A DNA stretch of 64,000 nt, taken from Hyaloraphidium curvatum. Taxonomy: Eukaryota; Monoblepharomycota; Hyaloraphidiomycetes; Hyaloraphidiales; Hyaloraphidiaceae. The notes beneath the pieces were generated by a model, which was not told the origin of the DNA, did no database searches, and saw nothing but the letters and a program-made list of their open reading frames with translations. The translations under genes and the position numbers were made by a program. The stretch spans positions 372,001-436,000 of the forward strand of contig JAIVFI010000043.1 of assembly GCA_025558095.1 (NCBI GenBank), given 5' to 3'. How positions within the stretch are numbered: the first letter of the stretch is position 1; every line of letters starts with the position of its first letter. Of the stretch, positions 1-12,400 are shown piece after piece.

Positions 1-2553
1 TCCAAGCGCTTCGTCTTGTTCACGGATGCCAGCGATATCGGCCTCGGCGCGGTGCTCAGCCAGCGGGACTCCGATGGCAAGGAGTACGTCATCGCCTACG
101 CCAGCCGCGCTCTGCAGCCGAACGAGCGCAAGTGGGACACTCGGGAGCGCGAAGCCCTGGCCGTTGTTTGGGCATGCGAGCATTTCCGGGCGTATTTGAT
201 CGGGGACGAGTTTGAGGTGGTCACCGACCATAGCGCCCTCAAATGGCTCTTGGAGACCTCCAAGCCGGGCCGCCTACAGCGCTGGATCCTCCGGCTCTCG
301 GACTTCAGGTTCCAGATCATCCATCGCTCGGGCAAAGCGAACTCCAACGCCGACTTCCTGTCTCGTCAGCTCGTGGCGCCGTCGCCCGACGAGGACGTGC
401 CTATGGGCGACCCCGAGGAAATCTTGGACATCCCTGCCTTTTGGCCCCCAAACCCTCCCGACCCCTTGCCTTTTTCTTCTTTTTCTGGGGGGGGACGGGC
501 GCCCGGATTCCTCTCCGGGAGTGATCTCGGTCAGACTTCCCGTTCTTCGTCAACCCCAGTCACCGAGTCAGACTCGGGACGAGCTACTGCGGGTTCCTCA
601 GTCAATTGTGAATCAATGGAGCGAGTGCTGTCTGGCACGGAGTTCCCGGCCACGGTTGCCGCAGTGGAGGGAACCCTGTGGAGCGATCCGGGGACCCTGC
701 CCGAGGCTGCGGCACCGGAGACGCAGATCCTCCTGCCGATCCCAACGACGAACGCACAGGTCGACCCGGCAGACGTGCCTGAGCGAGACCTGGCGTTCCT
801 TCATCCGGCACTGCTTGAGGTGCTACCCGATGTCGGGGGCATCAGTGCTATTGACCTTGCCGACGTCAGATCCCGGGATGCCCTGCGCAAAGTGCAAGAA
901 GCCGACGTCGAGACCAGCGCGCTGATCCGCTTCGTACGAGACGGGGAGCTCCCTCCCAACGTGAATCTGGCCAAATTCTGCAAGAAGTACGGCGAGCAGT
1001 ACTTCCTCGCTACGGACGGCGTGCTCTGCCGGCGCGATGTACTCGCGACTGGTACCCGTCGTATCCCGGTCACCCAGCTCGTGATACCGCACGAGCTGAG
1101 GGAGGCCTACCTGCAACGTGCGCACGACGATCCCCTGAGCGGGCACGTCGGGCGACACCGGGCGTACAGCAATCTGCGGCGCCGCGTATATTGGGTCGGC
1201 ATGGCGCACGACGTTCGCCGCTGGACGCGAGCCTGCCTTACATGCATGACCCGGAAGATGCCTTCGGTATCGAACCAGGGCTTACTGAAATCGGTTCCTC
1301 TCACAGGTCCCAACGAGGACATCTACATCGACTACATCGGCGAGATCAATCCGGCCACGCCCCGCGGCAACAAGTACCTTCTCGTCGTCTACGATCCGTT
1401 CACTAAATGGGTCGCGGCGTATCCGACTCCGGACCTCTCTGGGCCGACGACGGCGAAGCTGCTCTATACGCGATGGATTCTCGAGCACGGTCTTCCGAAG
1501 CGGATTCACCACGACAACGCCTCGAACCTGGACAACCATTACATGGAGTACCTGCTCAAGCTACTCGGCATCAACCGGGGCCTGGTCACGGTTGGGCATC
1601 CCAGGGCTTCCCTCGCGGAGCGCCCGAACCGGTGGATCATCGACGCCCTGAGCGCAGCGGTCTCCAAGAACTACCAGACATGGGACGAGGACATCGTGGG
1701 GGTCATCTTTGCCTTCCGGACCTCCATCCACGCGACGACCGGCGAAACTCCGTTCTTTCTGATGCATGGTCGGGATGCTCGTATTCCGCTCGACCTACTT
1801 TACGACGAGACCGAGATTCGCGAGCCAGTGCACCTGCGGGCCAGCGACGAGGAGGACAAGAAGACAGAGGATGAGCGCCGGCGGACCTACGTCGTGGAGC
1901 TCGTGGCGCAGCTTCGTGCGGCCTACGACCTGGTGGCCGAGAAGATGGCCGCAGCGGCGGAGACTCGGAACGCCAAGGCCAACGCTACCCGGCTTCCGAT
2001 TACCTTCCGCCCCGGCGACCTCGTGCTCATCTGGGGACCAGAACGACCGCGCAAGGGCGAGCCGGGCAAGTTCGTCTCTCGTTATCTTGGGCCCTACCGC
2101 ATCGAGGAGTCAGGCCACACCGAGCTCACCTGGAAGTGTAGACACGTCTACGAGACCGACCACGTCACCACTGTGCATGTGGACCGGCTGGCGCGCTACA
2201 AGCCTTGGGAGTCGGCCACCTTCAACGCGCGCTCGTGGAACGCACGCGCCCCGGAGCTCGCCGCCGGTGAAGAGCTCGATCTCTCGGAACCGGTGAACGA
2301 GTTCGAAGAGGAAATCGAGGTCGAGAACGCGCTTGGGAACGAGCAGGAGTACACCGTCGAGGACATCGTCGGCCACGAGGGCCAGGGTCACGGACTCAAG
2401 TTCGAGGTCAAGTGGCGGGGCTTCGCTCGCACGACCAAGCTCCCTCTGGACATGTTGCACGGCGCCATAGGGATCGTCCGCGCCTATGCCGATCGCGTTG
2501 GTCTCCAGCTCCCGACGGGTCTCCCCAGGCGCATGCGGACTCGGCGTCGCTAG
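1..2553 (+). CDS. Ty3/gypsy chromovirus Pol, 3' part (RNase H, integrase, chromodomain-like tail); 5' partial
   Basis: The reading frame is open from base 1, so the protein enters from the left; protease and reverse transcriptase are outside the window. Domains in order: Ty3-type RNase H (FTDASDIGLGAVLSQ near the edge, then VVTDHSALKWLL and ADFLSRQ, to about base 360); a low-complexity linker; the H-H-C-C integrase zinc finger (SGHVGRH, then CLTC, about 1125-1250); the integrase core with D (YIDYIG), D (HHDNAS) and E (SLAERPN), about 1310-1640; and a chromodomain-like tail (EYTVEDIVGHE, FEVKWRGF, about 2345-2440). No stop or frameshift is seen, so this part looks intact. I found no polypurine tract or TG...CA long terminal repeat after the stop. 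The domain order is typical of chromoviruses. Confidence 0.93.
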   Translation, partial: SKRFVLFTDASDIGLGAVLSQRDSDGKEYVIAYASRALQPNERKWDTREREALAVVWACEHFRAYLIGDEFEVVTDHSALKWLLETSKPGRLQRWILRLSDFRFQIIHRSGKANSNADFLSRQLVAPSPDEDVPMGDPEEILDIPAFWPPNPPDPLPFSSFSGGGRAPGFLSGSDLGQTSRSSSTPVTESDSGRATAGSSVNCESMERVLSGTEFPATVAAVEGTLWSDPGTLPEAAAPETQILLPIPTTNAQVDPADVPERDLAFLHPALLEVLPDVGGISAIDLADVRSRDALRKVQEADVETSALIRFVRDGELPPNVNLAKFCKKYGEQYFLATDGVLCRRDVLATGTRRIPVTQLVIPHELREAYLQRAHDDPLSGHVGRHRAYSNLRRRVYWVGMAHDVRRWTRACLTCMTRKMPSVSNQGLLKSVPLTGPNEDIYIDYIGEINPATPRGNKYLLVVYDPFTKWVAAYPTPDLSGPTTAKLLYTRWILEHGLPKRIHHDNASNLDNHYMEYLLKLLGINRGLVTVGHPRASLAERPNRWIIDALSAAVSKNYQTWDEDIVGVIFAFRTSIHATTGETPFFLMHGRDARIPLDLLYDETEIREPVHLRASDEEDKKTEDERRRTYVVELVAQLRAAYDLVAEKMAAAAETRNAKANATRLPITFRPGDLVLIWGPERPRKGEPGKFVSRYLGPYRIEESGHTELTWKCRHVYETDHVTTVHVDRLARYKPWESATFNARSWNARAPELAAGEELDLSEPVNEFEEEIEVENALGNEQEYTVEDIVGHEGQGHGLKFEVKWRGFARTTKLPLDMLHGAIGIVRAYADRVGLQLPTGLPRRMRTRRR

Positions 2554-2600
2554 TAACACCAACGACGTCTATCCGGTCACAGCACTACCATCTCTGTGCT
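1..2600 (+). mobile_element. Ty3/gypsy (chromovirus-type) retrotransposon, right part
   Basis: The pol gene fixes the class. The 3' boundary is not visible: no LTR, primer-related or target-site duplication could be recognised between the pol stop (2553) and the minus-strand gene that ends at 2624, so the right end given is nominal. Either the 3' LTR is deleted, or the three genes that follow (2.6-6.7 kb) lie inside a larger composite element. Confidence 0.7.
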
Positions 2601-2623
2601 CCGATCCCCGGCTTTTCACTGAC

Positions 2624-3609
2624 TCAAACCCGACGTACTACCTCGAGCCTATCCTCGACCCCCTCGAACGCCAACTTGTGATACCCGGACTGAAAATGCG
2701 TGTTCAGATTGCCCAGGAGGCCCTTAGCCTTGTGCTTTACCAGATGGCACCACGGGAACGAGCATACCGCCACTTCGCCCTTGGTGGGGCTCCGGTACAG
2801 TTCGCCGGCGTACGTTCCGGCAATCTTCCATCGGAGGAAGGAGCCTGCCGGCACGGCATCAGGGACCTTCTTCGTCACCCGTTCCGCCTTCAAGCCCCAG
2901 ACCGGCGACGACTTCTTCATCTGGCACATTCAGTGACGATCAGCGCTTGTGGGGCGTACTCCCGTCGAGCCGTTCACCTGCGCAATCTGCTCCCGGGCCT
3001 CCCCGCGCTGCACCACATGCCCCTCGTCTTTACCTGAAGTTGCCGTTTGGGCCGTCTGGAAGGCGCTCCCTTGTTCAGTGGCGGCCTCGAAGTCGCCTAA
3101 GTGGTCCAGCTCCCAAGAGGGCGCATGAAGCGTGACTGACAGCACGGGGACTTCGTCGGCCGCCTCGAGCTCCTCCCTCGAGTCCGCCGCCGACTCGCCC
3201 TCGCCGACGGAAGGCGCACCCTTCGACGACATCGCCGGCAGGAAGACGCCGGAGGTCCGGGTTGCGGCCGCGGCCGCGATCGGGTCGTTGCCTCTGGCCC
3301 CGCCAGCCTCGCGCAGCTTGGCGGTCCCGCCGGCCTCGCGCAGCTCGGCGACGAGCCGACGGAGCACTCGGACCTCGACAACGACGTTCCCAGCCTCTTC
3401 GGCCAGCGGCAACATCCCGCGCATGGCGGCCAGACGCACCAGTTGCAGGAAGCAGTCGACCACGTCGTCCTCCTGGCGCGGCGCTGAGCTCCCGTTCGAG
3501 GACCACGCCGCTACGCTCTTACCTTGGTGCACAGCAGGACGTCGAAGGTCGGCAACCGAACCTCGAACCACGAACTCGGCGGGACGACGTTCGGCAGCTC
3601 CGCACTCAT
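2624..3609 (-). CDS. Uncharacterised 292-aa protein with C-terminal CCHH (BED-like) finger
   Basis: Proposed exons (minus strand) 3609-3523, 3472-2978 and 2920-2624. Intron 1 has a GTAAGA donor and CAG acceptor, and removing it joins ...VLLCTK to EDDVVDCF. Intron 2 (57 nt, GTGAAC...CCAG) removes an in-frame TGA at 2930-2932, so the gene is intact only when spliced. The middle holds a charged helical stretch with a duplicated REAGG unit. Near the end CSFPWC and HFQSGYH give Cys-x4-Cys ... His-x5-His, like a BED or C2H2 finger and therefore possibly DNA binding (inference). It is transcribed divergently from the coiled-coil gene at 3978, with the palindrome array between them, and converges on the retrotransposon pol. 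No family was recognised. Confidence 0.6.
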
Positions 3610-3739
3610 GACAGGCGCGGAGATCCCCCCAGCTCTTCTGGACCCTACGTCGCGATCCCCCGCGAGCGCTTTCGTCGACGCAATGGCGTACGGCCCTCGC
3701 TCGCGCCCCGTCCCCCGTGGCGGGGACTGGTGACCCGGT

Positions 3740-3912
3740 GTGCGGGCGAACTCGCGGTCGACTCGACTCGCAGTTGACTCGCGGTTGACTCGCGGTTGGC
3801 TCGCGGTTGACTCGCAAGTGACTCGCGAGTCACTCGCGAGTCGCTCGCAAGTCACTCGCGAGCGACTTGCGATGCACTCGCGAGTTGCCTGCGCTTCGCA
3901 CCATATAAGCGG
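3740..3912 (+). promoter_or_regulatory. Palindrome array plus TATA box upstream of the coiled-coil gene
   Basis: About ten degenerate copies of a 10-12 bp unit (GACTCGCGGTT, GACTCGCGAGTC, ACTCGCGAGT and variants) run head to tail from roughly 3765 to 3890. Several are perfect palindromes centred on TCGCGA. A TATA-like CATATAAG follows at 3901-3908 and the start codon is at 3978. The spacing is close to one helical turn, as expected for repeated binding of a dimeric regulator (inference). The array may also serve the divergent minus-strand gene that starts at 3609. Confidence 0.7.
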
Positions 3913-3977
3913 CGGACCACAGGAGGCCGCGGCCGCGGACTACGCACCCAACGTCGACCTCGCCGCTACCGTCTCCC

Positions 3978-5243
3978 ATGGCGACCCCCACGACTGCCGG
4001 CCACAACCTGCGGCCCCGCCGGCCGCATGTGGCCACGGCGCCGCCGCCGGCGACTGCGCCCGTCGCTGCGTTGCCTGGCGTCGTACCCCCGGACTATCGG
4101 TCGGCGCTTGCCTCCCTCTCGACCCGGCTGGACGACCTCCGGGCCGACCTCGACGTCAGACACTCCCAGACGACGGCCCACTTGCACAAGGTCGAGCAGG
4201 CCGCCTTCTCCGCGGTCATGCCCATCCGCGCAGCCCTCGACGCACTCCACCCGGTGCTCAACACCCTCGTCAATGTCGGCAACCTGGAGCAGCACGCTCT
4301 TGACCGCGTAACGGCGACGCTCGAGCAGCAAGAGGCCCGCCTGGACGCCCAGATCCGCCAGCAGCGTGACGAGCTCCAGGTGGTCCTCAGTGGCCGCCAC
4401 CGCGAACTTGAGTTCGCCGTCACCGCCTTGCGCCGGACCGACGACGCTCGTCTCGGTGCCATCGAGACGCAGCTCGACCGGCTTGCGTTGGTGCTCGAGG
4501 CTCAACGTCAGAACTTCAACGGCATTCTCCTGGTGGACGAAGCTACCATCGAGGAGTTGAGGGAGTTCGGCTCTTCCCTCGCCGGGCTGGTTGCTCAGAC
4601 CGGGACCAACCTCGAAACCACCATCGAGACCGTCGTCGAGACCAATCTCGCCCGTCACAACAATGGCCCCATGGCGGAGTTTGCGGCCGACCTCAAGAGC
4701 GTCCTGGCGGCCCATCTGCAGCGATTTGGGTCGGAGCAGCACAAGCAGCTCATGCTTTCAGCTCAAGACCACACCACGCTCCTCACGGCCGGCCTGAACG
4801 CGCAGCGCGAGCACTTCACCAAGACCGCCGACGAGCAACGGGCCCTCCTGCGTCGCTTCCTCGGCAATCAAGTGGCTCCCCTGGCGGGGCAAACGACGCC
4901 CGCCGTGGTCACCTCCACGCCGGTCGGCCGCGTCAAGGACGAGGACCTCGTCACCTCCGACGATGAGGCTGGGGATATGCAACCTCCAGCTCCTCGCCCC
5001 GAGAGCGTGTCCAGCAGCGACGCCTCCTCCATCGTCTCGCAGGACGACGGCCTCTTGGCCGCCCTGTACGACGACATCCCGGCCGCTCCCTACAAGTCGA
5101 CCATGCCCCCGGTCTACACCCCCTCGGCCGCGGACGGCTCAGCCGTGCATGCCGCCTTCGCTCTCGGCTTTACCCGCCGGCTCCGCGCCCCGCCGCCGAG
5201 CGACGACGAGGCGGACGCCGACGTCGACTTTGAGGACGCCTAA
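3978..5243 (+). CDS. Uncharacterised 421-aa coiled-coil protein with acidic tail
   Basis: Single exon; this is the first ATG after the TATA box (70 nt). The N-terminus is Pro/Ala-rich and basic (about residues 1-35). A long, highly helical, heptad-rich region follows (about 36-315; for example LSTRLDDLRADLDVRHSQ), then a Ser/Pro linker and a strongly acidic end (SDDEADADVDFEDA). There are no membrane segments, signal peptide or enzymatic motifs. It could be a structural, capsid-like or scaffold protein of a mobile element, but nothing in the sequence proves that. It shares its upstream array with the nuclease-like gene downstream, which suggests joint regulation. Confidence is in a real gene, not in a function. 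Confidence 0.7.
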   Translation: MATPTTAGHNLRPRRPHVATAPPPATAPVAALPGVVPPDYRSALASLSTRLDDLRADLDVRHSQTTAHLHKVEQAAFSAVMPIRAALDALHPVLNTLVNVGNLEQHALDRVTATLEQQEARLDAQIRQQRDELQVVLSGRHRELEFAVTALRRTDDARLGAIETQLDRLALVLEAQRQNFNGILLVDEATIEELREFGSSLAGLVAQTGTNLETTIETVVETNLARHNNGPMAEFAADLKSVLAAHLQRFGSEQHKQLMLSAQDHTTLLTAGLNAQREHFTKTADEQRALLRRFLGNQVAPLAGQTTPAVVTSTPVGRVKDEDLVTSDDEAGDMQPPAPRPESVSSSDASSIVSQDDGLLAALYDDIPAAPYKSTMPPVYTPSAADGSAVHAAFALGFTRRLRAPPPSDDEADADVDFEDA

Positions 5244-5454
5244 GCCACCCTTCGGCCCTACACTCTCCAACATCTGTTGTCTCCACCTCGGCCTTCAACA
5301 TCTTCTACTGCAAGCATGACGTCACTCCGCGGAGGATCTTCGATTTCGTGGCGCCGAGGGCGGCGCCTTCTTTTGGGTGGGGGCGTGCGAAGGTACAGGA
5401 CGTCTGACATTCGGACAAGGGTATTTTCATTTTCGGTTCGGAGGCGTGGAGGCG

Positions 5455-5585
5455 TCGGTCCTCGCGATCGACTCGTGATCGACTCGCGATCGACTCGCGA
5501 GTGACTCGCGAGTCACTCGCGAGCGACTCGCGAGCGACTCGCAAGTGACTCGGCACAGCCACCCTCCTGGGATATATAAAGAGCG
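5455..5585 (+). promoter_or_regulatory. Second palindrome array plus TATA box
   Basis: Units of the same family as at 3.8 kb (GATCGACTCGCGATCGACTC, then GACTCGCGAGTC and GAGCGACTCGC variants) run from about 5460 to 5550. A strong TATA box, GATATATAAAG, follows about 20 nt later (5572-5582). The arrangement copies the first array in order and spacing. The first ATG of the following open frame is at 5959, so the 5' untranslated region would be long or contain an intron. Confidence 0.7.
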
Positions 5586-5958
5586 GGACATGTAACAGTA
5601 CAATCTTGATCGCCAGTTGACTCTACGTGCTCTCCGTGTCGTTCGACCACCGTGCGGAACCCCGCCCGGCCGGATCCTCGTTCTGAGAGCCCTTGGGACG
5701 CACCCCGGGAGACATCCCGTAACCTCTTTCCCCCGGCTACAGTCAAGTATCTTCAGCGCTGTTCGCTTATTCATATTCAGGGCCTATCCGACCCGAAGAG
5801 CCGAGCGGGATTCGCGCGCCGGGTTAGAGCTTCAGGCCCGGTTCCGACCCGGACCGTCGCACTTACTTGTACGCTTCCGGCTTTGCCTCCCGCTCCTGCA
5901 CGAGGCCGACTACCCTGGTCTTTCCTTGCCCTGCCGGCGGGGCTGCAAGCGATCGGCC

Positions 5959-6657
5959 ATGTCGCTGACGGGGGAGCACGCGTTCTCGGGCTGCTATGGC
6001 CGGGATCTCTTCAGTCCTGGTCACGACGACATTTGCGCGGCCATCCGCGCGGCGCTTCGCTCCATCCCGCTCCTCCGCGTGCACCCCATGCCGCCAAACC
6101 TCCTTGCGCATGGCTACGAGACTGTCACCCCGCCCACGCCTGCGGATGCTGGCCGCCTTGGCGACGTTCTCATCACGCACCGCGAAACCCGGAAACGGTG
6201 GTTGCTCGAGATCAAGACCCTCACCTCTATGGCCCATTTGCACACGGGCCTGGTCTTCTCGGTCCCGGGCCACGCAGTCGGACGGCGGGTCGAGGCCGCC
6301 AGGAAGGACTACTCCCGTTTCGTCTTCAACGCCAACTTCTACCCTCTGATCGTGCTTGCTTTTGATTCGTACAGCGCTGTCTCTGCCACTTTCTCGCGCT
6401 TCTCCTCGGAGATGGGGCGCATCCAGTATCCCGGGATCGTCGGCCGCGATGGACAGCCCGTGGACCTCGATGGCCTTTACTCTCGTTTTGTGCGGCGCTT
6501 CCGCGAACGGATCGCGGTGGCCTGGGCTCTTGGCTTCGCGGCCCAACTCCAACACTGGCTTCAGCTGTGCACCGAAGCCGCCGCTGTCAACGCTCCGGCC
6601 CCCGCGCCGGTCGCATTTGGTTTGAATGTAGATGAGGAGCTGATTCTTGGGGCGTAG
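5959..6657 (+). CDS. Uncharacterised 232-aa protein with PD-(D/E)XK nuclease-like signature
   Basis: The frame is open from about 5617, but the first ATG is 5959 (MSLTGEHAFSGCYGRD). Residues 61-86 carry PADAGRLGDV, then LLEIKTL: Asp69 in a hydrophobic strand, about 14 residues, then Glu84-x-Lys86. This is the D...ExK pattern of the PD-(D/E)XK nuclease superfamily, which also needs structural confirmation because the motif is short. The rest is helical, with RRFRERIAVAWALGF near the end. The stop lies only 58 nt before the start codon of the CWF19-like gene, so the two are packed very tightly. No close family was recognised; a mobile-element nuclease is one possibility. Confidence 0.6.
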   Translation: MSLTGEHAFSGCYGRDLFSPGHDDICAAIRAALRSIPLLRVHPMPPNLLAHGYETVTPPTPADAGRLGDVLITHRETRKRWLLEIKTLTSMAHLHTGLVFSVPGHAVGRRVEAARKDYSRFVFNANFYPLIVLAFDSYSAVSATFSRFSSEMGRIQYPGIVGRDGQPVDLDGLYSRFVRRFRERIAVAWALGFAAQLQHWLQLCTEAAAVNAPAPAPVAFGLNVDEELILGA

Positions 6658-6715
6658 GGGGATTTCTAAGTGTACGGTGGGATTGCTAGCTCCTCATTAC
6701 ACATTGCGCGCAGCA

Positions 6716-9082
6716 ATGGCGTCCGACGGCGAGCGGGGCCGCGATGGCGACCGGAAGGGCGAAAAGAAGGACAAGAAGCGGCGACGCTCGCGGTCGTCGA
6801 GCGGCTCGTCGGACTCGGACGCCGAGCGGCGACGGCGGAAGCGGAAGGAGAAGAAGGAGCGGCGGCGCGACCGCCACAAACACGCCGACGGGCAGCGCGG
6901 GGGCGGGGAGGAGCTCTGGGTCGAGAAGGCGCCGGCGGCGCCCGCAGCGGCGGGTGGTGCCCAGGCGGGGAGCCGGGAGGCCCCGAAGGAACCAGAGGAA
7001 CGCCCGACGGACACGGCCCCTGCGCCGGCTCGGCCCGCAGACGCCGGCTGGATGTCGTTTTCTGCTCCGAAACGGGACGACGATGCCGCCGAGGACGAAA
7101 ACACCGGGGCAGCAGCGGCGGTCGACTCGGGCCGACCGTCGGACCCATTCGCGGCCATGTTCGACGCCTCGACCACGCAGCGCAAGTCCAAGGCCGAGCT
7201 GCAGGAGGAAAAGCGCGCAGCCGAGGCGCGCCTGCGCGAGCCCGGCCGCTCGGACCGCGAGCTGAACCCGTACTGGAAGGACGGCGGCGACGGGCTTCCG
7301 TCCGACCAGCGGAAAAGGAAGCACGAGTACGGCGACGCCGGCTCCGCTTGGCGGATGCTGAAGCTGCGCAAGGCGAGGGAGATGGCTGAGGAGGAGGGGC
7401 GGAGCATCGAGGAGGTGGCGCTGGAGCGGTTCGGGTCGATGGAGGAGTACCTGGACGCCGTGGAGGAGCGGAAGTACCTCGACGCCCGCGGCAGGGGCTC
7501 GTCGGGCGGCCGCGACCGTGACAGGGACAGGGACCGCGATAGGGACGGGCGGCGAAGGGTGGAGGACCGCGACGTGGCCGGCCGCGCCGTGCTGGCCGCC
7601 CGGGGCGAGGCCTTCAGGCGGGCCGGCGACGACGGCGGGCGGTGGTCGCCCGCCCAGGGATCCCGCTCGGGCGGCACCCCGAGGACGGATACCCCGGGCT
7701 CGGACGCCGATCGTTGGCCCAACGACGGCACTTCCAAGCCCGCCGCGCCGACATCCGCCTCCCGCTACCCCCCCGTCTCCATCCCCTCCGCCATCCCCAC
7801 CCCGCCGCCCGGCACCCCGCCGCCCGGCCGCCCCGTGCTCACCACGGACCAGCTCAACAAGCTCCAGGCCCGCATCCTCAAGGCCCGCATCTCCAAGGAC
7901 CCCAACCTGCCCGCGCTGGAGCGCGAGTACGCCGAGGAGAAGCGCCGCGCCGCCGCGGCGCCCCCGGACGTCGTCGTGCTGCCCACCGTCGACTCGCGCG
8001 GCAGGCTGCAGGACCTCCCTTCTGGCTCCGCTTCGGGACCTCCGCGGTCTGCGGGACCGGCCAAGCGCGCCAAGCCGTGGGCCGCGGACAAGGCGCAGGG
8101 CGACGCCGAGGCCGACCCGTCCCGCGCGCCCGATCTTATGGAGCTGCTGCGGAGGGAGAAGATGGGCGTGGGGGAGGGGTACGACCGCGAGCTGGCGGAG
8201 CGGATCGCGCGGGACTCGGCGTTCCGGGACAACCTGGACTACATGGACGAGCAGTCGGACCGCATGGCCCGGCAGGTCGGGAGGTCGGACGACAAGAAGA
8301 GGCAGACGGCGGTGGACGACCACCGGAGGATGCAGACGGCGCTGGAGCGGTGCGCGTACTGCTACCAGGACGAGGGCAAGACGGCGCCCAAGGTGCCCGT
8401 GGTGTCGCTGGGGAACAGGACCTACCTGGGCCTGACGCAGACGGTGGAGATGGCCAAGGGGCACTGCGCGATTGTGCCGGTGCAGCACGTCAACAACTCG
8501 CTGGAGCTGGAGGACGACGCGTGGGAGGAAGTGAGGGTACGTCGCTCAAAGTGTTGTCTGGCCCGACTGCCGCTCATCCCTCCCCTCTTTCAGAACTTCA
8601 TGAAGTGCCTCACCCAGCTCTACGCCACCTTCGACCCGCCCTGCTCCCCCATCTTCATCGAGTCCTTCGCCAACCCCAAGCACCGCCGGCACTGCGTCAT
8701 CGAGGCCATCCCGGTCCCGCAGGACCTCGCCGCCGACGCCCCCGCCTACTTCCGCGACGCCCTCCAGAGCGCCGAGGAGGAATGGACGGTGCACCGCAAG
8801 GTGATCGACACGCGCGAGGGCGGCATCCGCCGGCACATGGTCAAGGAACTGCCCTACTTCCACGTCTGGTTCGGGCCCAACGGCGGCTTCGGCCACGTGA
8901 TCGAGGACTCGGCGTCGTGGCCGGACTGGTTCGGCAAGGAGGTGGTCGCGGGGATGATGGACCTGCCGCCGGAGCTGTGGAGGAAGCCGCGGTGGGCGGA
9001 CCGCAGGGACGAGGCGGGGAGGCTGAAGAGGTTCAGGGAGGGGTGGGACGCGTTCGACTGGACCAAGGCGCTGGATGAGTGA
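6716..9082 (+). CDS. CWF19-like (CwfJ family) spliceosome-associated protein
   Basis: Exons 6716-8536 and 8594-9082 (769 aa). The 57-nt intron (GTACGT...TTTCAG) is a multiple of three without stops, but splicing restores the family sequence EVRNFMKCL. The N-terminal half is a low-complexity RS/RD/KE-rich region with DRDRD repeats (about 260-290), typical of splicing factors. The conserved C-terminal CwfJ domains start at CAYC (Cys546/Cys549) and include GHCAIVPVQH, the HIT-like core, SPIFIESFANPKHRRH and the final WFGKEVVAGMMDLPPELWRKP. Family role: Cwf19/CWF19L2 proteins associate with late spliceosomes and aid lariat turnover in the nucleus. Identification is strong from the C-terminal third; MASDGERG is the first sensible Met. 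Confidence 0.92.
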   Translation: MASDGERGRDGDRKGEKKDKKRRRSRSSSGSSDSDAERRRRKRKEKKERRRDRHKHADGQRGGGEELWVEKAPAAPAAAGGAQAGSREAPKEPEERPTDTAPAPARPADAGWMSFSAPKRDDDAAEDENTGAAAAVDSGRPSDPFAAMFDASTTQRKSKAELQEEKRAAEARLREPGRSDRELNPYWKDGGDGLPSDQRKRKHEYGDAGSAWRMLKLRKAREMAEEEGRSIEEVALERFGSMEEYLDAVEERKYLDARGRGSSGGRDRDRDRDRDRDGRRRVEDRDVAGRAVLAARGEAFRRAGDDGGRWSPAQGSRSGGTPRTDTPGSDADRWPNDGTSKPAAPTSASRYPPVSIPSAIPTPPPGTPPPGRPVLTTDQLNKLQARILKARISKDPNLPALEREYAEEKRRAAAAPPDVVVLPTVDSRGRLQDLPSGSASGPPRSAGPAKRAKPWAADKAQGDAEADPSRAPDLMELLRREKMGVGEGYDRELAERIARDSAFRDNLDYMDEQSDRMARQVGRSDDKKRQTAVDDHRRMQTALERCAYCYQDEGKTAPKVPVVSLGNRTYLGLTQTVEMAKGHCAIVPVQHVNNSLELEDDAWEEVRVRRSKCCLARLPLIPPLFQNFMKCLTQLYATFDPPCSPIFIESFANPKHRRHCVIEAIPVPQDLAADAPAYFRDALQSAEEEWTVHRKVIDTREGGIRRHMVKELPYFHVWFGPNGGFGHVIEDSASWPDWFGKEVVAGMMDLPPELWRKPRWADRRDEAGRLKRFREGWDAFDWTKALDE

Positions 9083-9472
9083 TCCAATCGGACCGTGGCT
9101 GTTTTGCTGCTGTGGTGCTGTGGGCTTGGTCAGTCCGGTTTCGCCCGGAAATGTGGGGTGAACGAGCCCGATGACGTCTGTCGGAGGGCGGCTGGCCCTC
9201 TCCGAAAACCTCTGTTCTTGACCTCCGGGCCCAACAGCTGTATCTGCAGAGCCATTGCTGCTCTGCGATTATAGCACGTGCGCCTCGCTGCGTTCGGATG
9301 CGCCGGGCGGCCGGAAGTGCAAAGGACCGACGAGTGTGTCATTTCCCAGGGACGCTCAGGGACCGACCTGTGGCGGTGCTCCTTGGCCTCAAAATGGGCG
9401 ACGACGGAGTCACCCGAAATCCAACTTCACTCACACCAAACACAAGCGAATACCAACCCCAGCTCTGCGGAC
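9083..9472 (+). other. Intergenic, 390 bp
   Basis: This stretch holds the CWF19-like 3' region and the protease promoter and leader. I see no further gene, repeat or recognisable regulatory motif. Confidence 0.5.
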
Positions 9473-12400
9473 ATGCGCTGTTGTGCGGAGCTTTCCACGG
9501 ACGACAAGGGCGGCCGGCGCCCGCGCGGGCGCGGCACGCGGATCCTCCTCGCGGCGCTCGCCGTCTGCGCGGCAGCGGCGCCGTTCCTCCTCGCGGGCGC
9601 CGACGCGTACGCGATCCCGGTGCACCCGCTGCGCGGCCGTGCCGAGCGCCGCGGCCTGACGGCGCCCGCGCGGCCGGGCCCGGGCACCGCGCCGCCAACA
9701 ATCATCGGCGGCGGCCCGGCCTCCAACGCCCAGGCCTACCCGTTCCTCGGCATTCTCATGATGGAGCCCTACGGTGCGCCCTCCTGTCCCCGCACTATTG
9801 CCGCACTTGCTGACCTGGCGGCCCTCCCCATCCTCCGCTGTTAACCGGCCGACCTACCCGCACCCAGGCTTCAGATGTGGGGCCACCATGATCGGCCCCC
9901 TGACCGCCATGACCGCAGCCCACTGCGTCACGACGGACAGCTATTACAGCAGCAGCTCCTCGCGCCCCAACGACCCCAAGCGTCCCAAGACGCATTTCCC
10001 CATCGAGTCGCAGCTCTTCAGCCTGCACACGTACCGCTACAACCAGTCCAAGACCGCCGAGGAGGAGGGCGCGATCATCTACAACGTCACGGCCTTCGAG
10101 TACCATCCCGATTACGATCGCACCGGCAACCTCGAGAACGATGTCGCCGTGCTCTTCCTCTCGCTCTTCAACAACTACGGCTCGAACGAGGCCAAATACG
10201 TGGCCCTGAACCGCGAGCCGTCGGAACCCGTGCCGCCGGAGCCGCTGCGCGCCATTGGGTGGGGCGTGTCCGACATCTACGAGTCGTGGTGGGGAGGCGC
10301 CGGTTACTACTATCCCGACGTGAGCCATCCCGGTCTCCTTCCCTTCGTGCCGTCCTGAAGTAGATTTGGACATCCACAGATCCTGCAGCAGGTCGACCTA
10401 CCTGCGGTTGCCAGCGAAACGTGCGAGGACTACTACAATGAACTCTTCAACGACACCTGGGCCATGGATGCCTCGCAGCTATGCGCCGGCGAGCGTGGAA
10501 AGCAGCCCTGCTACGGCGACAGCGGAAGCGCTCTCCTCCGAGACCTCGGCGGCGGCGAATGGGAGCAGGTCGGCATCACCAGCTTCGGCATGCTCGGGTG
10601 CAAAGACCCCGCCTCGCCCTACAGCTTTTTCTCGCGCGTCTCGGCGGTCCTGCCCTTTGTCGAGACCTGGCTGTCGTTCCAGAACGGGTCGATGACCCGG
10701 ACGACCACCCCGACGGCGACGACCACGGCGTCGGTGACGAGGACTACCATGACCTGGGTTGGTAAATTGCTAGCCCAACCCGGCTGCCGGCCACTAACGC
10801 TCGCTCTCCGCAGGCGACTCCGACCATCGAGTACGGCAGGGTCCGCGTTTGCAGCAACAAGTATGAGCAGATCCCGCACGTCGACTCCCTGGTCCAGTCG
10901 ATTGACGTGGTCGGGCTGGGACCAGTCGGGGACGTCGACATTGAGCTGTTCATCGAGCATCCCTACCCGCAAACGCTCCAGGCGGAGGTGTCCTCGGTGA
11001 ACGGCGACGGAGTCTACGCCTACACCTTGCTCTTTTCCGGCCCTGGCTGCGATGACGGGGGCTTCGCGGGGCAGCCCATCACGTTCGACGACTCGGCCGG
11101 GTACATATTGGGCGAGGTCGACTGCAACGGCACTCGCTACAGGCCATGGAGCGGCATAAACGAGGAGTTCCGCAGCATCGGACGCCTGGACGATCCCAAC
11201 GGGCAGTGGAACCTCTCGGTGGTCGACATGGCGGGCCTGGACTATGGCTCGGTCGGGCAGTGGTGCCTCAACTTCCTCCCGCGCTCGGCCATGACGAGCA
11301 CGACCTTCATCCCCACGCCTACGTGCGAGCCCGTGACCGTGACCGAGACGACAACCGTCGGGGCGGCGCCGACGCCCGGCTGCGGGAGCGGCGTTGGTTA
11401 CTCGAACAACCTCGTCCACCGCTGGGTCTACGACGCTAGCCGCTCGACGACCACCTTCCCGGACTGTGTGGGCACGGCCGACACCACGGTGACGGACCCG
11501 TCCAAGGTCGCCTTTCCGCAGGAGATCATCAACGGCACCCTTCACCAACCCATGGAGGTCAATGGCACGCGCGACGGCCTGATCGCCCCGGCCGAAGTCG
11601 GCGCCATCGGGACCACGGACTTTACCATCACCATGTGGACCAAGATGCGCCTCGACTTCCCGTGGAACGGGACGGATGAGAGCTGGCAACGCTGGGAACT
11701 CTTCTGCAACCGCGGGGCCGACGACGGCGGGCCGTATGTCTGCTCGAGGGTGCGCAACTACGACAACACCGTCTCGCTCGAGATCGCCAACGGGGGCCAC
11801 GGCATCGGGGTGGTCGCGCAGAGCACGGACCAGCTACCCTTCCTGGACAACGAGTGGCACTTCCTCGCCCTGGTCCGCAAGGGCGCCGACGTGTCGATCT
11901 TTGTCGACGGCCTTCCCGTGGCGACCGAGACCGAGGTGCACGGGCACACCATCGACCTGCCGGCCAGCACGCTGCCCGTGGGCATCGGCTACTCGCCATA
12001 CTGGGGCGACTGGCCCGTGGGCCCCTTCCGTTTCAAGGGGCGGATGGACGACGTGCGGGTGTACTACGAGGCCCTCGACACGAGCGCGCAGGGGGCGATC
12101 ATGGATGCGTGGCGCGCTGCCGGCCCTTGGGTGGTCACGACTGTGACTTCCACGGCAATTTCCACCACAACGGCGACGGTGCCGACCACCCTCACCTCCG
12201 TTTCGACTACGACTGCTGTTTCCACTTCGACGGATGTTTCAACGACGACGTTTGTTTCCACTCTCACCACGACCTCCGTTTCTACGTCGACGCAGCTTTC
12301 CACGACAACGGAGCGCTCGACCGTGACGAGCACGAGCAGCATCACTTTGCCCCCCGTCACCGAAACGCAGACGCAGTGGTCGACGACCACACTCACCGTA

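Follow-up and report, generated by a model that had tools for sequence, protein, structure and literature searches.

Matched palindromic arrays in the LTR and ahead of an accessory gene of a fungal Ty3/gypsy retrotransposon suggest an exchangeable regulatory cassette

In the genome of Hyaloraphidium curvatum, an early-diverging fungus, two arrays of short palindromic units stand close to each other, each followed by a TATA-like box, and the question arises which genes such twin control regions serve and what reads them. The sequence-only reading of this locus (a window of 64,000 nucleotides, the whole stretch that was analysed) had seen in them the duplicated control region of a small selfish or defence-like regulon, with a coiled-coil protein, a nuclease-like protein and probably a zinc-finger-like protein as its members. 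We found that both arrays are parts of a single mobile element, designated here element A, and that there is no chromosomal regulon. The features of the element and of its right flank are collected in Table 1.

Table 1. Positions of the features of element A and of its right flank in the window
Feature	Position	Strand	Basis or counterpart
pol, 3' part: RNase H, integrase, weak chromodomain-like C-terminus	1..2553	+	Pfam
Antisense accessory gene, predicted exons 3609-3523, 3472-2978, 2920-2624	2624..3609	-	predicted splicing
Predicted 57-bp intron, phase 0, in-frame stop inside	2921..2977	-	splice prediction
Array 1, internal, 11-bp ACTCGCGAGTG-type units; last clean unit ends at 3885	3740..3898	.	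repeat search, autocorrelation
TATA-like box CATATAAG, presumed internal promoter	3903..3908	+	sequence
Sense accessory gene (421 aa; C-terminal part acidic)	3978..5243	+	14 full-length, stop-free copies among 23 matches
Polypurine-tract-like run ahead of the 3' LTR	5370..5385	+	by eye
3' LTR, TG...CA, 476 bp	5386..5861	+	identical to 5' LTR L005:5334-5809
Array 2, U3 array of the LTR	5461..5551	.	repeat search, autocorrelation
TATA box TATATAAAG of the LTR promoter	5573..5580	+	sequence
Target-site duplication CTTA	5862..5865	.	other copy L005:5330-5333
Interrupted non-LTR retroelement, 3' part; nuclease-like C-terminal region to 6657	5866..6700	+	uninterrupted copy L046:1-1470

The arrays themselves were found where the earlier reading had placed them, with a common unit. 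The repeat search grouped both arrays into a single family, whose 14 copies of 90 nt overlap at 11-bp offsets, nine in array 1 and five in array 2, and the autocorrelation peaked at 11 and 22 bp in both arrays (0.80 and 0.75 in array 2, 0.70 and 0.66 in array 1). The unit ACTCGCGAGT, with at most one mismatch, occurred 12 times in the window compared to 3.08 times expected, a count reached in none of 100 shuffles; ten of the 12 matches fall inside the arrays. Dyads with half-sites of at least 4 were moderately more frequent than in dinucleotide shuffles, which reached the observed level in 13 of 1000 cases for array 2 and in 44 of 1000 for array 1. Both arrays stop 10-25 bp ahead of the TATA boxes. 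Array 1 lies 3' of pol, between the antisense zinc-finger-like gene and the sense gene. The sequences from the TATA onward differ between the internal and the LTR promoters, the match being confined to the array.

Element A is a Ty3/gypsy LTR retrotransposon (Metaviridae). It has the domain order RT, RNase H, integrase as well as paired TG...CA LTRs, a short target duplication, a purine run and a tRNA-primer-like site 3' of the 5' LTR (these last two seen by eye). For the part of pol within the window, Pfam gave matches to RT_RNaseH (1e-37), Integrase_H2C2 (6e-18) and rve (1.1e-6, 29.3 bits against a cut-off of 32.6), while the Chromo match at the C-terminus was weak and below the cut-off (0.0081, 16.5 bits against 25.1, 26 residues). 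The pol frame extends upstream of the window into the genomic region L005, where we observed a gag-like ORF, a protease-like frame and the RT domain (RVT_1, 9.3e-35). The gag-like ORF carries a CCHC knuckle (by eye) and no Pfam gag match was found for it; the protease had a weak Pfam match, below the cut-off. The two LTRs are 10.05 kb apart and identical in 476 of 476 bases (blastn of window positions 1-12000 against selected genomic regions).

Across the genome, the listing of LTR matches held 73 rows: 34 full-length, 6 partial and 33 short opposite-strand matches to the array. With 40 of the 69 candidates scored, these copy numbers are a lower bound: at least 34 full-length LTR matches, at least 27 of them 100% identical. 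Given these identical LTR matches, the element is young and was active recently. Matching 4-bp duplications were seen by eye in seven of the eight LTR pairs with both ends available, the pair at C35:430111/437475 being the one exception. This pair belongs to a copy (L023, C35:424000-433999) in which the equivalent of window position 2304 is joined to that of 5119, so that the end of pol, the antisense gene, the internal array and most of the sense gene are deleted. At C11:502083-535794, a unit with an LTR, the sense accessory gene and a partial LTR is amplified in tandem and occurs three times, the period being about 11,078 bp.

Array 2 had been thought to lead into a gene of its own, just as array 1 does. 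For array 1, which is followed by the sense ORF, this was correct; array 2, however, is a part of the 3' LTR, and the ORF at 5959-6657 behind it belongs to interrupted flanking DNA. An open frame with an RT domain (L005:2214-5333; RVT_1, 5e-10) runs into the 5' LTR and picks up again at window position 5866, past the 3' LTR. The insertion target was also found uninterrupted elsewhere in the genome, on C1, where the same frame crosses the insertion site unbroken. Because of this unbroken frame, we take the ORF to be the C-terminal end, cut off by the insertion, of an ORF of a non-LTR retroelement, an assignment in line with the RT domain and the nuclease-like region standing in the same ORF. 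An independent nuclease gene with its own promoter is ruled out by the LTR boundary, the target duplication and the uninterrupted copy, and the nuclease-like protein drops out of the supposed regulon. The nuclease-like region has a D...ExK-like pattern, seen by eye only, that would hint at a PD-(D/E)XK fold; no Pfam match and no PDB sequence match was obtained for this piece, and its single-sequence structure model, with a pLDDT of 36, was too poor for use.

Several further observations were made on this flank. Copies of the non-LTR retroelement (that of the window, the uninterrupted one, and those in L001, L007/L008 and L024) end in ...CTCCTCATTACA or ...CTCCTCATTACAA, each copy having a different 3' flank; in L001 the tail is present a second time, and several of the copies have LTR elements within them or close by. 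A gene for a CWF19-like protein (CwfJ_C_1, CwfJ_C_2) occupies window positions 6716-9082 (scanned as 6719-9082), its likely start codon being about 15 bp past the end of the non-LTR element.

If the array were an ordinary satellite, its unit should be scattered with no relation to promoters. We found 49 sites of the 12-mer GACTCGCGAGTC in the 31.9-Mb genome, compared to one per strand for the reversed pattern used as control. The sites are indeed scattered, yet 33 of the 49 are in LTRs and the other 16 no more than 400 bp upstream of the accessory ORF, with none elsewhere. The assignment to LTRs used 39 LTR rows (a row for the 3' half of an LTR and the 33 short matches on the opposite strand were omitted), and the internal assignment used those 16 of the 23 sense-gene matches that cover the beginning of the accessory ORF. 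With all 49 sites inside the element, the satellite reading is ruled out.

The two genes that flank array 1 make up what stands of the proposed small selfish gene set, and the set is that of a mobile element; the nuclease has no place in it, and nothing observed suggests a role in defence (in Pfam and protein-sequence searches). The last exon of the antisense gene has a zinc-finger-like pattern C-x4-C-x16-H-x5-H (by eye), which is conserved in the sister element described below; 12 of its 15 matches are full-length and identical. The predicted 57-bp intron follows GEAREQIAQ, and a predicted 51-bp phase 0 intron follows GEAQHQIAS at the corresponding position of the sister protein, the residues GEA..QIA being common to both; retention would bring an in-frame stop in either case. 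Since such an intron is usable only in antisense transcripts, it would not be lost when the element passes through its sense genomic RNA. The acidic C-terminal part of the sense protein is conserved in the sister as well (RVKDEDLVTSDD... YDDIPAAPYKST). For four copies whose sense gene is complete (C2:164402 and the three at C11), no match to the zinc-finger exon was listed.

Neither accessory protein had a Pfam match above the cut-off in either element. The coiled-coil label once given to the sense protein is hinted at by Pfam matches, all of which are below the cut-off; weak matches of the sense ORF to Baculo_PEP_C (0.0014 and 0.0092) are below it too. The pieces of the antisense gene had no Pfam match in either element, TRP28 (PF04195) included, and the structure model of the zinc-finger exon (pLDDT 38) was unusable. 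The sense protein corresponds to the H. curvatum protein P0001 (100% identity over 80% of the query). With about 8000 candidates sharing most words scored in each search, the sense protein retrieved one protein, from H. curvatum, and the alignment of the two elements' proteins retrieved two, both from H. curvatum, with no homologue found outside the species; part of the antisense gene, searched against proteins, had no match.

Weak matches to the accessory genes led to the sister locus, C1:249000-257500 (L045), which defines a subfamily B next to subfamily A of the window. Identity to element A was 98.8% in the leader, 93.0% in gag-PR (with 445 gap columns, partly because the compared stretches differ in length), 88.0 and 90.7% in RT and 92.6% in the RNaseH-INT-chromo block, where, of 851 codons, 679 are the same in both elements, 129 carry silent differences and 43 encode another residue. 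The sister pol has one internal stop. The similarity breaks off at the pol stop codon: the accessory genes, the internal array and the stretch from TATA to ATG had identities of 48.6-54.8%, compared to 44.5-50.9% for shuffled sequences. Within the LTR, the identity was 58% in the first 50 bases (shuffled 44%), 58% in the U3 array (52%), 69% in R (48%) and 83% in U5 (47%). At the protein level, the zinc-finger exon retained 44% identity, the sense protein 32%, best in its acidic C-terminal part, and the middle exon 25% (E 2e-4).

Subfamily B has arrays of its own. The internal one (L045:4697-4791) consists of GACGGCGTC-type units followed by CTATAAAG and then by the sense ORF; its TRF periods include 9, 11, 22 and 31. 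The 3' end of this copy reads N. A second sister fragment ends at C1:522312, and 14 bp later there begins an LTR (L047) that starts like the LTR of A and has a U3 array of ACGGCGTCG units, then TATATAAAAG. The public protein of the first sister copy, P0002, ends in the first codons of an LTR of this type (by eye). The sister is essentially one locus and one fragment, and its 5' LTR looks interrupted. Its arrays are less regular than those of A (best autocorrelation 0.48 and 0.54, the latter for the internal array at 22 bp). In both subfamilies, the U3 array and the internal array alike are followed by a TATA-like box.

In each subfamily the U3 array matches the internal array of that subfamily, and not the arrays of the other. 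In A, 61 of 98 U3 8-mers occur in the element's own internal array, and in B 34 of 103; conversely, 60 of 155 internal-array 8-mers in A and 31 of 100 in B occur in its own U3. None of 300 shuffles reached these counts in either direction. Between the subfamilies, the sharing was 0-4, i.e. at the level of shuffles. The sister 18-mer ACGGCGTCGACGGCGTCG has eight exact sites in the genome, all in four sister-type LTRs or in the internal array; 11 further matches with one mismatch are scattered, compared to 3 sites, with at most one mismatch, for the reversed pattern.

Partial LTRs of both types were also observed. Those of the A type at C11:511977, 523055 and 534134, C13:757531 and C32:571471 end at about the same place, A position 322-323, while the B-type LTRs at C1:231580, C15:541871 and C22:167849 match L047 only to position 284, just past TTGGGACGC. 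At C11:534466/535630, a 1.16-kb insert separates two LTR halves that have about 11 bp in common. The shared endpoints and this insert suggest that some element, perhaps a LINE, has a preferred insertion site in this LTR.

A third relative, on C27, has a pol 71% identical to that of A with a frame open over 1386 aa. Its pol ends about 0.94 kb ahead of the LTR TATA, compared to 3.0 kb in the window, and the element appears to be without the accessory region, or mostly so. Because its pol is open though the accessory region is apparently absent, gag-pol may work without the cassette.

Taken together, the matched arrays and the block-wise divergence of A and its sister suggest an exchangeable regulatory cassette, made of one or more accessory proteins and two cognate promoters. 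We propose, with a probability of roughly 0.5, that at least one of the two accessory proteins binds the arrays and co-regulates the LTR and internal promoters, and that the cassette was exchanged in the sister by template switching. The U3 promoter would drive gag-pol, and the internal promoter would serve the two divergent accessory genes; one or both of their products would bind the arrays, probably as dimers. Such co-regulation would tie the output of gag-pol to that of the accessory genes in a feedback loop, with activation slightly favoured over repression. Matched arrays ahead of both TATA boxes point to joint control of the two promoters, and control by the element's own proteins is the economical reading because both arrays change together with these genes and gag-pol does not. 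This covariation is no proof that the proteins read the arrays, since linkage alone makes arrays and genes covary.

As for the exchange, the 3' third of the genomic RNA contains the accessory genes as well as the internal array and U3, and therefore one switch could swap the whole cassette. In retroviral replication U3 is copied from the 3' end of the RNA; hence the boundaries of the divergent block, the pol stop on one side and the R/U5 region on the other, would fit one template switch between co-packaged RNAs. Were reverse transcription to change template once, at the end of pol, the regulator and both of its target promoters would be replaced together. Fast divergence under selection is the other option for the origin of the sister block.

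Possibly, though we lean against it, the arrays are instead bound by host stress or cell-cycle factors, and the accessory genes reuse the enhancer for some other function, such as RNP assembly, transport or anti-silencing. The repeats of plant Sireviruses, in the available text of PMC2829016, matched mainly sites of plant stress factors, and the accessory proteins of element A have no recognised DNA-binding family. On the other hand, no GACTCGCGAGTC site lies outside the element in the 31.9 Mb, though an exact match over 12 bases is a strict test, and two elements with near-identical gag-pol have unrelated array units in one host.

The regulation by accessory proteins that we favour might go further, to a self-contained, exchangeable cassette with regulator genes, their own promoter and a U3 operator of the same specificity, in the manner of a phage immunity region; this form is rather unlikely. 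If true, elements with the same gag-pol and different cassettes would make separate regulatory groups in one genome, and a single template switch would carry the entire regulatory specificity.

Pieces of LTRs are readily duplicated by retroelements, and short-period arrays tend to expand, so the internal array might be a functionless copy of U3, produced by illegitimate duplication or template switching and kept alike by concerted evolution. The limitation of the match to the array, with different sequences after the two TATA boxes, and the recurrence of the order array, TATA, ORF in both subfamilies with different units make this origin improbable. Finally, the sense ORF lies between pol and the 3' LTR, the usual place of env and env-like genes, but it can hardly be the envelope gene, with its own promoter, of a retrovirus-like element, given no hydrophobic stretch of transmembrane grade (maximum 19-residue mean hydropathy 1.2 and 0.9), no Pfam envelope match above the cut-off and the presence of a second, antisense gene.

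The transcription of LTR retrotransposons is generally attributed to host factors. Element A and its sister, with near-identical gag-pol and different pairs of array and accessory genes, amount to a natural swap experiment on whether such accessory ORFs encode regulators of the element.

Among known systems, the closest arrangement is that of the plant Sireviruses (Ty1/copia; Bousios et al. 2010). In the available text of that paper (PMC2829016), palindromic repeats are described in the LTR before the TATA and again upstream of ENV; the repeat unit is largely element-specific, and the linker copies of the repeat are present in nine elements with ENV and in none of four without it. Its authors proposed stress-related factors, did not conclusively identify an internal promoter, and left the meaning of the twin repeats open. 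Element A likewise has palindromic repeats in the LTR before the TATA and upstream of a third ORF. Unlike the Sireviruses, in which integrase precedes RT, it is a fungal Ty3/gypsy element with RT-RNase H before integrase. The CGG-CCG core described for Sirevirus repeats is absent from the A unit ACTCGCGAGT, whereas the B unit ACGGCGTCG has CGG with no CCG partner. Further differences from the Sireviruses as described there are the TATA-like box after the internal array, the divergent and probably spliced antisense gene, and the whole 3' block that differs between two elements with near-identical gag-pol.

Foamy viruses, according to the available text of PMC3798896, have an internal promoter near the 3' end, before the accessory genes, on which Tas acts, as it most likely does on U3 too. 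The second array and TATA before the accessory gene of element A, matched to the U3 array, would be a similar layout, although the element has no recognised env and no Tas-like match, and a transactivator is here only a candidate. For Retand elements, the available text of PMC11963269 describes an ORF that lies antisense between pol and the 3' LTR and may encode a DNA-binding domain; about half of the elements studied there have tandem repeats in this region. Gene23 of maize Grande is transcribed from its own upstream promoter, and antisense extra ORFs of plant elements are reviewed in the same source (PMC7264820, available text); both sources call the functions of such antisense or extra ORFs between pol and the 3' LTR open. 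Element A resembles Retand and Grande in having an antisense gene between pol and the 3' LTR; it differs from Retand in that this gene has no TRP28 match, and from both in that its internal array matches the U3 array, which the available text of the two sources does not report. For bdelloid elements, captured third ORFs are documented, and the word 'promoter' is absent from the available text (PMC5408684). No paper on this element or on cassette exchange was recognised in the literature searches, many subscription papers being outside their reach. The kind of arrangement is known; its combination in a fungal Ty3/gypsy element, together with the exchange of the cassette, looks new within the literature searched.
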